A DNA stretch of 34,317 nucleotides, taken from the NCBI GenBank assembly GCA_013331265.1, contig DUGS01000155.1, positions 26,094 through 60,410 of the forward strand, in the 5' to 3' direction. Below, piece after piece: positions 1-4,475 of this stretch. A program made the position numbers and the translations under genes. Source of the stretch: Methanosarcina sp. (GTDB lineage Archaea > Halobacteriota > Methanosarcinia > Methanosarcinales > Methanosarcinaceae). Under the pieces are notes generated by a model. The model saw nothing but the letters and a program-made list of their open reading frames with translations, was not told where the DNA came from and made no database searches. The first letter of the stretch is position 1. The number at the start of each line of letters is the position of its first letter.

Positions 1-62
1 TCTCTTTGCAGGATTGCAGCTTTCTCAGGAAGATCTCCCTTAACATACTCCTTGCTTACCAT
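1..62 (-). CDS. 5' end of a CDS running off the left edge (MVSKEYVKGDLPEKAAILQR...), product unknown
   Basis: ATG on the minus strand at 62-60, AGGAG-like RBS upstream, open to the window edge; overlaps the stop of ORF 56..289. Confidence 0.4.
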   Translation of the reverse strand, partial: MVSKEYVKGDLPEKAAILQR

Positions 63-289
63 AATATTACACTCTCCTGGTTTTCCCAATTTAATAGATC
101 AAGGCCTGTTTCAGGATCCAACCAGTTATCCTGAGCCGATGTCCAGACATCAGTGCAAAAACTGAGCTGATGAATGAGCCGAAGTTCCCAAACAATAATT
201 TGACCCGCAAATAAACGAATCTGGAAACCTGCTTTAGCCCCTGAAAAATTTGACCCCATAATAACTACAGAACCTTGATAACCCGGCAC
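56..289 (-). CDS. Small hypothetical ORF (77 aa), possibly a chimeric or degraded upstream partner of the edge CDS
   Basis: ORF track; its stop overlaps the ATG of the next minus-strand ORF (TTATGGTAA); no clear family. Confidence 0.25.
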   Translation of the reverse strand: MPGYQGSVVIMGSNFSGAKAGFQIRLFAGQIIVWELRLIHQLSFCTDVWTSAQDNWLDPETGLDLLNWENQESVILW

Positions 290-781
290 CCTTCCGGATT
301 AGAGGTTAACTTCTGGACTCGTAAAAGAGAGCACCAGATTACAGAATATATGTTCAAGACAATATAAATTGTTCTGCTTTTTAACTCAATACAATTTTTT
401 GCCTTTTAACAATTTACGCTTGTGGTTTATTTTAAAAAATTAGATAAATATGCAGGCAAGCGAAATATCAATTAAAAAAGAAATTTTAAATAAGTGACAG
501 GTAGGTTGAAAATGAGCGAATTATAAGCCCCTGAGTTGAGTCTGTACTAAAAATGAGTAGTTAGTTTAAATAAGAGAGCTTTAAGGTTCTAAAGTGAAAA
601 TGAGAGGTGTAGTGGGGAAAAAAATACGGCGTGAGTCATGAGTTTTCGGAGAAGAGTGTGACAATTGATTATTTTTTAGTAATTACAACGAAAGGGTCTA
701 ATGCAGTTTTGAATTGTTACTTTTTGATAAGTTTAAATATCATAGAAGTTAATTTTTACTCATATTGGAGAAGGAATTAGG

Positions 782-1924
782 ATGACTGAAGAATTACTTG
801 ATAATTATTATGATGAATTCTCATCTGATAATGAGGAATTATCACTGGACGATGATAAATTAGTAAATGATGTAATAAAAACAAAGAATAGTTTATCAAC
901 TGACCGCATGGATATGTCTTTTGGCGAAATAATGAATATGTATGAAAGAAATGAAATTATTATCGATCCAGAATTCCAAAGGTTGTTTCGCTGGTCAATT
1001 GAACAGCAAACACGCTTTATAGAATCTATACTTTTAGGCATCCCAATTCCTCCTATCTTTGTTGCTGAGGATAAAAATGGTAGATGGGAATTAGTAGATG
1101 GGCTACAAAGAATTTCTACTGTCCTATCCTTTTTTGGAGTACTTAGAACTCTTCCTGATAAAAATAAGTGGGCGTTTTCAAAAGGAGAATTAATTGAGTC
1201 TTTAGAAAACTATGATTGTGATAAAATTCCTTTAAAAATTAATCTGAACATTAAACGTGCAATTTGTAGAATTGAGATCGTAAAATGGAACAGTGCAATG
1301 GATATGCGATACGAGCTTTTTAACAGGTTAAATACCGGAGGCTCTCCTCTTACTGAGCAGGAAATAAGAAATTGTATTTTTAGGGGGACTTCGAGCAATT
1401 TTAACAATTTCTTAACAAGAATGGCATCAGACGAAACGTTTATCCGTTTAATTCAGCCAACTAAGAGACAAGAGGAGCAAAAATATTTAGAAGAACTTGT
1501 GTTAAGGTTTGTGTCATTGATGAATAATGAATGGGAAAATTCAATTAATTGGGAAAACACAGGAGATAAACTTTCTACTTATATGACTTTATTTATGAAA
1601 AGAACAACTAGAGATCTAAACTTTAATTTTGGTTACTATGAGACTTTGTTCCAGAGAATGTTGAAATTATTGGAACCGTTAGGTTATGAAATATTCAGAG
1701 CTTCAAATGGCGTTTTTTCAACAAGCTACTATGATGGGATTACTATTGGAATCGCATCAAATATTGATTATTATGAAAAAGTTGAAAGCTCCATAATTAA
1801 GCAAAAAATAAATGAACTCGTAACCAGCCCGATATTCATTAAAAATATTGGGGCTGGTTCTAGTACTAAAAACAGAGTAATTAATAGAATAAAGATTGCG
1901 CTTGATATTTTTAATGTTGAGTAA
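782..1924 (+). CDS. DUF262 (ParB/sulfiredoxin-like, GmrS-N type) protein
   Basis: 380 aa; IIDPEFQRLFRWSIEQQTRFIESILLGIPIPPIF and VDGLQRISTVLSFF match the DUF262 core (variant of the DGQQR motif). Confidence 0.88.
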   Translation: MTEELLDNYYDEFSSDNEELSLDDDKLVNDVIKTKNSLSTDRMDMSFGEIMNMYERNEIIIDPEFQRLFRWSIEQQTRFIESILLGIPIPPIFVAEDKNGRWELVDGLQRISTVLSFFGVLRTLPDKNKWAFSKGELIESLENYDCDKIPLKINLNIKRAICRIEIVKWNSAMDMRYELFNRLNTGGSPLTEQEIRNCIFRGTSSNFNNFLTRMASDETFIRLIQPTKRQEEQKYLEELVLRFVSLMNNEWENSINWENTGDKLSTYMTLFMKRTTRDLNFNFGYYETLFQRMLKLLEPLGYEIFRASNGVFSTSYYDGITIGIASNIDYYEKVESSIIKQKINELVTSPIFIKNIGAGSSTKNRVINRIKIALDIFNVE

Positions 1925-1929
1925 TTATT

Positions 1930-2568
1930 ATGAGTAGATTAGAGCAAGAGTTACTATATGAGGTGGATTGGAGAACAAATGAACTGTCTGTCATAAGAAC
2001 AATTCCGATCTTATGTAATTGCAGTCCTAAGCAAATACAGATATTAGAAAGATATTCAGTGGTTGCAATATATTCAATATGGGAGGGATTTGTTGAAACA
2101 GGTTTTGGTTTATATGTCAGAGAAATAAATGGTTTAAATTTAACTTACAAAGAAATTCATTTAAACATTTTAACTCATGATATATTTGTTAAGTTTGATT
2201 TGACAGAAGAGCAAAGAAAGCATTTTGTTAATAAATGTAAATTTATAGATAAAATTATTGAGTTTCCTAAATTACCTGTGAACATATCTCCAATATTACC
2301 TACAGAATCAAATATTGGTTTCGATGTAATAAATCAAATATTAACACACTTTTGTTTGGACAAATTACCTGCAAAAGAATTTGAGCAACGTTTTAAAAAA
2401 TTACTTCATTACAGAAATAATATTGCACATGGTCAATGCTCTTTACCCGTAGATAGAGAACTTATTAATGATTTCATTCTTACTGTGATAGATGCAATGA
2501 GTGACGTTACGATTCGGATAGTAGAAGGGTTTGAAAACAAAAAATATCTAAATGAAATACCTCGCTAA
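1930..2568 (+). CDS. HEPN-domain protein (MAE_28990/RiboL-PSP-like), putative RNase
   Basis: 212 aa; YSVVAIYSIWEGFVE helix and C-terminal LLHYRNNIAHGQ with an intact Rx4H catalytic motif; 5 bp downstream of the DUF262 gene. Confidence 0.75.
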   Translation: MSRLEQELLYEVDWRTNELSVIRTIPILCNCSPKQIQILERYSVVAIYSIWEGFVETGFGLYVREINGLNLTYKEIHLNILTHDIFVKFDLTEEQRKHFVNKCKFIDKIIEFPKLPVNISPILPTESNIGFDVINQILTHFCLDKLPAKEFEQRFKKLLHYRNNIAHGQCSLPVDRELINDFILTVIDAMSDVTIRIVEGFENKKYLNEIPR

Positions 2569-2841
2569 TTTTTTAGAACACAAACAAAAAGAGACTTTAG
2601 AATAAATTATTACTACTCTCACTACTCTTTTGCTTCTATGCAGAAAGACCTTAAGAAGCCCTATAAAGCGAGTTCACTTTTTTTCGATGAATCTCAATCT
2701 CTAAAATAAGTCCTAATCGAGTTGAAGATGAGCATTTTGATTGAATAGAATGAATGTTGACCTTACTTTGTAATAGATATATTTAAGTAATATTCTCAGA
2801 ACATTACTTTGTGATTTTTTTAATAATAGAGATGATCGAAT

Positions 2842-3447
2842 ATGAATTTCAAACTTGATGAAGGAAAGCACATTCTTTGCCGATACAGGGAAATAGAAGA
2901 TCATCCAGATCCTTGTTTTAAAGAATTAACTTATGGAGAGTGCTATTATTTCGCTCCGACAATTAGAGAACACATCAAAGCTGGAAGCCACTACTTTTTC
3001 CAAACAACTATCAATAAACAGCGTTATATCACGGCTCACTATGTTGTGGAAAAAGTAGTAGAAGGTTGCGAAGCGAGACGCGATAATAAACTTAAAAAGA
3101 AATATAAAAATCCCCACATACGTCCTGAGGAACATCCAATATGGTGGGGAGGTTCTTATGATCCAGAAGACGATCCAATGACAGATGATGGGGATATCAT
3201 CATAATTGGAGATAAGAAAAGGTCTTTGGGAAAATTAAAAACTCCATTACTTTTAGATAGGGAGTTGGGGAAAAAACTTGAGTTTGAAAGCGGTAACAAA
3301 ATCAAATTTGATATAATCGACAAAAATGGTAATAAGTTGACAGATACCGCATGTATTAGTTCATGCACTCGCGTCCCTCGCTTAATTACAAAAAATGATG
3401 TTATTACTCTATTCAACGCAATAAGCTTGATGTACAATAAAGAATAA
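2842..3447 (+). CDS. Hypothetical protein, possibly PUA/ASCH- or Nmad-like
   Basis: 201 aa intact ORF, AT-rich codon usage like the two preceding genes; fold suggestion is weak. Confidence 0.5.
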   Translation: MNFKLDEGKHILCRYREIEDHPDPCFKELTYGECYYFAPTIREHIKAGSHYFFQTTINKQRYITAHYVVEKVVEGCEARRDNKLKKKYKNPHIRPEEHPIWWGGSYDPEDDPMTDDGDIIIIGDKKRSLGKLKTPLLLDRELGKKLEFESGNKIKFDIIDKNGNKLTDTACISSCTRVPRLITKNDVITLFNAISLMYNKE

Positions 3448-3786
3448 GGAAGTACATAAGTCGCCTGTTAATTTCTCTATACAATTAGTTTCAGTATAGG
3501 CTCAATATTTGTTATCGGTTGGACTTTATGCTGTCTATAAGCAATAGATAAATTCTTTTATCTTTTTTGCAAGATATTCTTTTCTAGTTAGTGTAAATCT
3601 ATCTATTTTCAATACAAATCTATTGTAAGTGCCACAACAACCCGTTTCAGGAAGTGAATAAAATTATAGGACCAAATACACGAACAAGACACAATTTTTA
3701 CGTATAAAACTATAAAAACAGGAATCCGGTAAAAACAGAAAAATGTTTCAAAATAATGAAAGAAAACGGATCTTCTGATCCGTTAT

Positions 3787-4167
3787 TTACTGCTTTTTCA
3801 TTCTTTCCAGAAAGCCCCTGAGCCCTGCCTTGTGCCTGGCTTCATCAAGGGACGCCCTCTCGAAGAAAAGGGCAGCTCTGGTATTGCCTTCTTTTCTTGC
3901 AAGTTCAGCAGCTTCGGCTTTTTCAACCTCAGCTTTGCTTTCCCCTTCAAGCATCATTTCAAGGTTTTCAACTGTTGTACTTTTCACAAGCCCCAGGATT
4001 TCAGCCACTTCTGTGGCATGCCAGGCTTCGTCCATTGCAATCTGACGGAGATAGACTGCAACATCTGCAAGCCCTTCCTGTTCAGCAATCTTCGACATTG
4101 CAAGGTACCACCCGACTTCAGTGGTTTCCCCTCTAAAGGTATCTTTCAGAATCTTTTCGAGACTCAT
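3787..4167 (-). CDS. Ferritin-like rubrerythrin-type protein lacking the rubredoxin domain
   Basis: 126 aa; GETTEVGWYLAMSKIAEQEG, DEAWHATEVAEILG, RKEGNTRAALFFERASLDEARHKAG: repeated E/ExxH di-iron motifs. Confidence 0.85.
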   Translation of the reverse strand: MSLEKILKDTFRGETTEVGWYLAMSKIAEQEGLADVAVYLRQIAMDEAWHATEVAEILGLVKSTTVENLEMMLEGESKAEVEKAEAAELARKEGNTRAALFFERASLDEARHKAGLRGFLERMKKQ

Positions 4168-4475
4168 AAAATCACCATTTATTTTTTAAGAATCCACCTT
4201 TATAAATTAAACGCGTGACCAGACACTGGTTTAAGATATCTGTTATGTTCGAGGAGATAGTAACCCAAGTTGCAAATTCTGATCGTGTTAAATCATTCGG
4301 TTTCCGAAGTGCTTAATCATTTAATTTAGCCCTTCGATATTAGATTTAAAGCGTAATGTAATATATCAGGGAAATGAATAAGACCTCTACATACCTTAAT
4401 GAAGAGAACACACAGATGAACAATAAAAATATACAAAAATAAGAATATCCTAATGAAGATAAAAATACATAAGAT

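Follow-up and report, generated by a model that had tools for sequence, protein, structure and literature searches.

In GmrSD, BrxU and SspE, DUF262 is the NTP-using domain and couples the use of NTP to a DUF1524 nuclease (PMC10952713). PD-T4-2, a system obtained by functional selection in E. coli, protects K-12 against T4, and its deletion from the native strain ECOR65 restores T4 plaquing (PMC9519451). A review places PD-T4-2 under both DUF262 and the HEPN family PF18735 (PMC10952713), and the literature searched holds no published mechanism for it. Rx4H HEPN domains, as is also generally known, are metal-independent RNases used as toxins or effectors, and HEPN-ParB operons were already catalogued in 2013, with HEPN genes of the MAE_28990 family located beside genes for ParB and a DNA methylase (Anantharaman et al., PMC3710099).

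Here we analysed a window (the whole stretch of 34,317 nucleotides of a Methanosarcina sp. contig), in which gene A (782..1924, + strand) encodes a DUF262 (GmrSD_N, ParB/Srx-superfamily) protein of 380 aa, as assigned by Pfam, PADLOC and a structural model, and gene B (1930..2568, + strand) encodes a MAE_28990-type HEPN protein of 212 aa, a predicted RNase effector, as assigned by Pfam, alignment and a structural model. The genes are separated by 5 nt, both ORFs and the spacing being exactly those of the initial annotation. That no experimentally characterised mechanism is known for the pair, as stated there, still holds, but protective activity has been demonstrated, PD-T4-2 having been validated against T4 (PMC9519451).

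The pair is like PD-T4-2 in that gene A matches PD-T4-2_A and gene B is an adjacent HEPN of the PF18735 type, but differs from it in that gene B, with 212 aa, matches PF18737 best, and in its host, an archaeon here and E. coli there. The PD-T4-2_B profile (168 positions) gave no match with gene B at E-values up to 1, and none anywhere in the archaeal genome. Elsewhere, PD-T4-2_B was without a match in the 392 genomes belonging to the family of an Enterobacteriaceae locus and in ten genomes with close relatives, and a scan of 394 genomes from the phylum yielded two marginal hits. Since gene B has no PD-T4-2_B match, we call the pair PD-T4-2-like and not PD-T4-2, and functional transfer from PD-T4-2 rests on the domain types and on gene A. 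The mismatch may stem from a narrow PD-T4-2_B profile and, by analogy, the pair probably works like PD-T4-2.

With the MAE_28990 and ParB operons of 2013 the pair shares the HEPN family, Rx4H and a ParB/Srx-like partner (DUF262), but the catalogue gives the family for Bacteria and makes mention of DNA methylase genes, whereas the copy in the window is archaeal and has no adjoining methylase. Gene A matches NsnA, which we take to be the DUF262 subunit of Menshen, above all other PADLOC models. Unlike in Menshen, however, a HEPN gene adjoins gene A and no ATPase or OLD nuclease is adjacent; neither gene B nor the following ORF, gene 3, matches an OLD-family nuclease in Pfam or PADLOC. NsnB matches in this genome were found on other contigs only, and the NsnB profile is of a generic ATPase type in its behaviour, with matches in all 14 control genomes. 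GmrSD, BrxU and SspE have in common with the pair a DUF262 with a DGxQR motif, and the solved folds nearest to gene A include BrxU and SspE, but here DUF1524/HNH is neither fused nor adjacent and the partner is a HEPN encoded by a separate gene. The pair also differs from HEPN-MNT toxin-antitoxin systems, as the partner is DUF262, no MNT nucleotidyltransferase is adjacent and gene 3 has no Pfam match.

The DUF262 and HEPN proteins

Gene A is an intact, full-length ORF, and its initial identification as DUF262 was borne out by the match with Pfam GmrSD_N (PF03235, E = 1.2e-26). NsnA was the best PADLOC model (1.6e-58, residues 29-377, full length), and PD-T4-2_A matched with 3.6e-52 and 175.6 bits over residues 48-377 (profile 41-361 of 363). 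VDGLQRIST, which had been pointed out as a near-canonical DGxQR motif, is present at V105-T113 (codons at 1094..1120, + strand), and D106, G107, L108, Q109 and R110 are unchanged in an alignment of 73 relatives. Thus, the 'near-canonical' DGLQR is the normal form for the subfamily of gene A.

Gene A was modelled with AlphaFold2 from 73 sequences, alignment rows from plasmid records being excluded from structure modelling. The model (mean pLDDT 88.5, pTM 0.79) has a mixed alpha/beta domain at about residues 40-170, followed by helices only (173-380). Foldseek returned BrxU, ParB N-domains and SspE on top, with probabilities of 0.96-0.99, E-values of 0.003-0.008 and low TM-scores, and these nearest folds of the model fit the ParB/Srx superfamily, though the match is not close. 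A profile search of solved structures found DUF262 proteins including SspE and BrxU, over short stretches of the DUF262 part. No DUF1524/HNH match was obtained with Pfam, GmrSD_N being the sole Pfam domain of gene A. A hidden HNH was rejected in view of this single domain, the all-helical C-terminal part and the confinement of structure matches to DUF262, in agreement with the earlier statement that the protein lacks an HNH tail.

Gene B, likewise intact and full length, matched HEPN_MAE_28990 (PF18737) with 1.2e-28 and 101.1 bits, against a curated cut-off of 26.8, over residues 5-206 (profile 2-211 of 211), and HEPN_RiboL-PSP (PF18735) with 1.3e-21, also above the cut-off. The intact Rx4H motif noted initially, R162-x4-H167, was confirmed by sequence and alignment within YRNNIAHG (Y161-G168; codons at 2410..2433, + strand). 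Y48, E52, R162 and H167 (gene B numbering) are the sole residues invariant in 73 aligned HEPN proteins, which show 17-44% identity to gene B, and W51, G53, N67, N128, N163 and G168 are nearly invariant; in this fast-evolving HEPN, constraint is thus strongest at the R-x4-H. Both genes keep all the residues that are invariant across the bacterial family, and both the DUF262 and the HEPN family are present as a single copy in this genome (3.3-Mb draft, 80% complete).

For gene B, a confident model (mean pLDDT 95.2, pTM 0.90) shows an all-helical bundle, as in HEPN proteins. Foldseek gave no significant match with a solved structure; HepT, other HEPN toxins and Csm6 were in its list with comparatively good target TM-scores (up to 0.48) but E-values above 1, so the structure by itself does not prove the HEPN fold. 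It is the sequence profiles that prove it, and the assignment of gene B to HEPN rests on them. From its HEPN family, gene B is predicted to have RNase activity.

Conservation, co-evolution and spread of the pair

GTDB genomes were scanned with the DUF262 alignment, which gave 506 related places, and the best 80 were retained. Removal of two broken copies (L086 and L105) left 78 intact close homologues. A lack of conserved co-occurrence, set beforehand as the main refuting condition, was decisively contradicted: in 77 of these 78 (best 80 of 506) the next gene downstream, in the same orientation, encodes a HEPN protein. The gap between the two genes has a median of -4 nt, that is, an overlap, and falls between -40 and +20 in 75 of the 77, and the HEPN motif lies within one ORF in 76 of the 77 paired loci. 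In a Planktothrix locus (L057, 6131-6806) the HEPN is split into two ORFs, of which the latter carries RNNVAH, and DUF262 is intact; Clostridium manihotivorum (L095, 5962-7125) has DUF262 without HEPN. A HEPN relative with an intact RNKIVH and no DUF262 neighbour is found in the same archaeal genus (L033, 1486-2187). Distance matrices of the two proteins, compared by the mirror-tree approach, correlated with r = 0.82, the maximum of 2,000 shuffles being 0.13, and mean identity was 46% for DUF262 as compared to 28% for HEPN. The DUF262-HEPN pair is a real conserved unit, the proteins of which co-evolve. In the same archaeal order, HEPN genes of different subtypes also lie downstream of more distant DUF262 relatives (for example L016, L018, L024 and L026).

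Among the best 80 of 506, carriers include Clostridia, Bacteroidota, Gammaproteobacteria and other Proteobacteria, Cyanobacteria, Campylobacterota, Lentisphaeria and methanogens. Pairs are borne on plasmids of Psychrobacter, Leptospira, Corynebacterium, Roseomonas, Paraburkholderia, Hymenobacter, Rhizobium and E. coli, and by Moraxella, Akkermansia and Terrisporobacter phages and a P2-like phage. DUF262-HEPN is a horizontally mobile, widespread module. A scan of IMG/VR with genes A and B found no relative. On a Hymenobacter plasmid (L009, 3464-5029), the DUF262 protein has about 190 extra residues before the domain, and a short HEPN gene comes after it. The HEPN partners on plasmids and phages match PF18735 and/or PF18737, and, like gene B, none of the plasmid, phage and other archaeal partners tested match the PADLOC partner models of PD-T4-2 and Menshen. 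PADLOC detects the DUF262 component under NsnA or PD-T4-2_A, but assigns no tested HEPN partner to such a system, so that complete systems go uncounted.

Two candidates for a third component were rejected. Gene 3 (2842-3447), an orphan ORF of 201 aa, was matched by no model of Pfam, NCBIfam or PADLOC; a homologue is absent from all of the more than 100 related pair loci compared, and just two further genomes of the order have relatives (split in G120, a short weak match in G109). The 116 immediate neighbours sampled belong to diverse families, the commonest being DNA methyltransferase (N6_N4 with 4 members, D12 with 3), and the bacterial ones are mostly ordinary chromosomal genes with few defence genes. 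A methyltransferase, occurring in few of the 116, is therefore occasional and not obligate in the close subfamily, most close relatives having no adjacent one. A DNA methyltransferase gene is found near the pair in each of the four phage loci opened (L119-L122) and in three plasmid loci (L003, L007 and L123); in L121 it immediately precedes and overlaps DUF262, and in L123 it immediately follows HEPN. These phage and plasmid neighbours echo the association of MAE_28990 with ParB and DNA methylase reported in 2013 (PMC3710099).

Genomic setting in the archaeon

The pair and gene 3 lie in an AT-rich insertion of 3.4 kb (373..3757, no strand assigned), with GC mostly 27-37%. In alignments with the relatives compared, both sides match and 373-3757 is without a counterpart; in the closest relative, G159, the match is 77% over 1-372 and 89% over 3790-4218. 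The insertion is flanked by a rubrerythrin-like gene (3787-4167, - strand) and, just outside the window, by a siroheme reductase-like gene. In a further 21 genomes of the genus the two flank genes are adjacent, at a spacing of 359-2669 bp (median 712, calculated from the coordinates); here they are 3977 bp apart. GC is 32% in gene A and 29% in gene B, as compared to 42% over 4600-34317 of the window. The closest homologues found are bacterial, from a Thermincola MAG (62% for A, 44% for B) and a Clostridiales MAG (60% and 42%), and within the order of the archaeon itself the pairs show 33-38% identity in A. Given the bacterial nearest homologues, the synteny of the flanks, the alignment gap and the low GC, the pair most likely arrived in this lineage at an intergenic site.

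No convincing flanking repeats were found at the insertion ends. A Sigma-70 promoter scan, a method unsuited to archaea, was not clearly above shuffles, and the 780 bases upstream of gene A hold no ORF of note. G159 is without the pair at the syntenic site and carries another DUF262-HEPN pair, L016, about 24 kb off on the same contig (G159:C22:24929-25780; RNSFAH, 252-aa HEPN). About 200 bases are duplicated around a 2-base N run before the window start (window 1-190 and the preceding 250 bases), probably reflecting a scaffold joint that the assembly left unmerged. The window as a whole does not form a defence island, and the flanking genes, heterodisulfide reductase and MCM among them, suggest a Methanosarcina by their content.

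Proposed mechanism and its alternatives

We consider it reasonably likely that the pair is a horizontally mobile two-gene antiviral module, with DUF262 as sensor or regulator and HEPN as RNase effector. The DUF262 protein, comprising a ParB/Srx-type NTPase domain and a helical C-terminal part, would restrain HEPN in its role of sensor or regulator. During infection it would recognise a viral cue, which may be DNA, possibly in a specific modification state, or nucleotides. NTP binding or hydrolysis by DUF262 would then free HEPN, acting as a dimer, as HEPN proteins do in characterised families, to cut RNA, and RNA cleavage would stop virus multiplication, probably at a cost to the cell. As no DNase is present and the HEPN is encoded by a separate, tightly linked gene, a DUF262 that senses infection and controls a HEPN RNase is the simplest model. 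The RNase activity, the inhibition of HEPN by DUF262, the trigger, the RNA target and abortive infection are what we infer.

Defence is the best reading of several kinds of evidence. The full-length match of gene A to the NsnA and PD-T4-2_A models suggests it, as do the near-obligate pairing, the co-evolution, the invariant catalytic-type residues, the carriage by plasmids and phages beside varied genes and the insertion in this genome; by analogy, PD-T4-2, which has the same two domain types and blocks T4, points to it as well. The mostly ordinary genes around the bacterial pairs, with few defence genes among them, and a window that is not a defence island speak against it, as do the missing PD-T4-2_B match of gene B and the lack of a significant solved fold for its model. 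Of the initial interpretation, both families, the absent HNH, the Rx4H, the pairing and defence as the best reading stand, and the nucleotide sensing, RNA cleavage and abortive infection are putative; to regard the pair as experimentally unexplored is no longer up to date.

A plain toxin-antitoxin or addiction pair, in which HEPN would be the RNase toxin and DUF262 the antitoxin, loss would harm the cell and defence would be a by-product, appears unlikely to us, although HEPN-MNT pairs, which are established toxin-antitoxin systems, serve as its precedent. Carriage by plasmids and phages and the order of a regulator gene followed by an overlapping toxin-like gene are consistent with it, and so are the intact DUF262 beside a broken HEPN in Planktothrix and the DUF262 without HEPN in C. 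manihotivorum. The HEPN that keeps RNKIVH in the absence of a DUF262 neighbour argues against this, and so does the match of gene A to validated defence components. Moreover, DUF262 is NTPase-type, and its large size and slow evolution as compared to HEPN suggest an enzymatic or sensing role. It is conceivable, though doubtful, that DUF262-HEPN is restriction-like, DUF262 reading DNA modification and switching on the RNase so that foreign DNA would lead to RNA cleavage; a neighbouring methyltransferase would then perhaps set the DNA modification at some loci.

We hold a type IV restriction-like system, in which DUF262 would recognise modified DNA and HEPN or the ParB/Srx fold would degrade it, to be quite improbable, as no DUF1524/HNH or other DNase domain was found, the partner retains the R-x4-H signature of RNA-cutting HEPN enzymes and most close relatives lack an adjacent methyltransferase. 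Such a system would be in keeping with DUF262 as the recognition and NTPase part of GmrSD, BrxU and SspE (PMC10952713), with BrxU, ParB and SspE as the nearest solved folds of gene A, and with DNA methyltransferase genes near some relatives. The single copy, the patchy distribution and the absence from the site in close relatives could also mean a recently arrived island that is non-functional or non-defensive in this archaeon. This seems very unlikely, since both ORFs are full length and retain every family-invariant residue, and patchiness is normal for defence genes, of which such a distribution is typical.

The DUF262-HEPN kind is already recognised, and the copy described here is an archaeal member of it, with a putative mechanism; with so few invariant residues, a direct mutational test would be easy. 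The pair is spread wider than current detection suggests, over archaea, many bacterial phyla, plasmids and phages. If the proposed mechanism is true, an NTPase family hitherto tied to DNA cleavage would be joined to an RNA-cutting effector.
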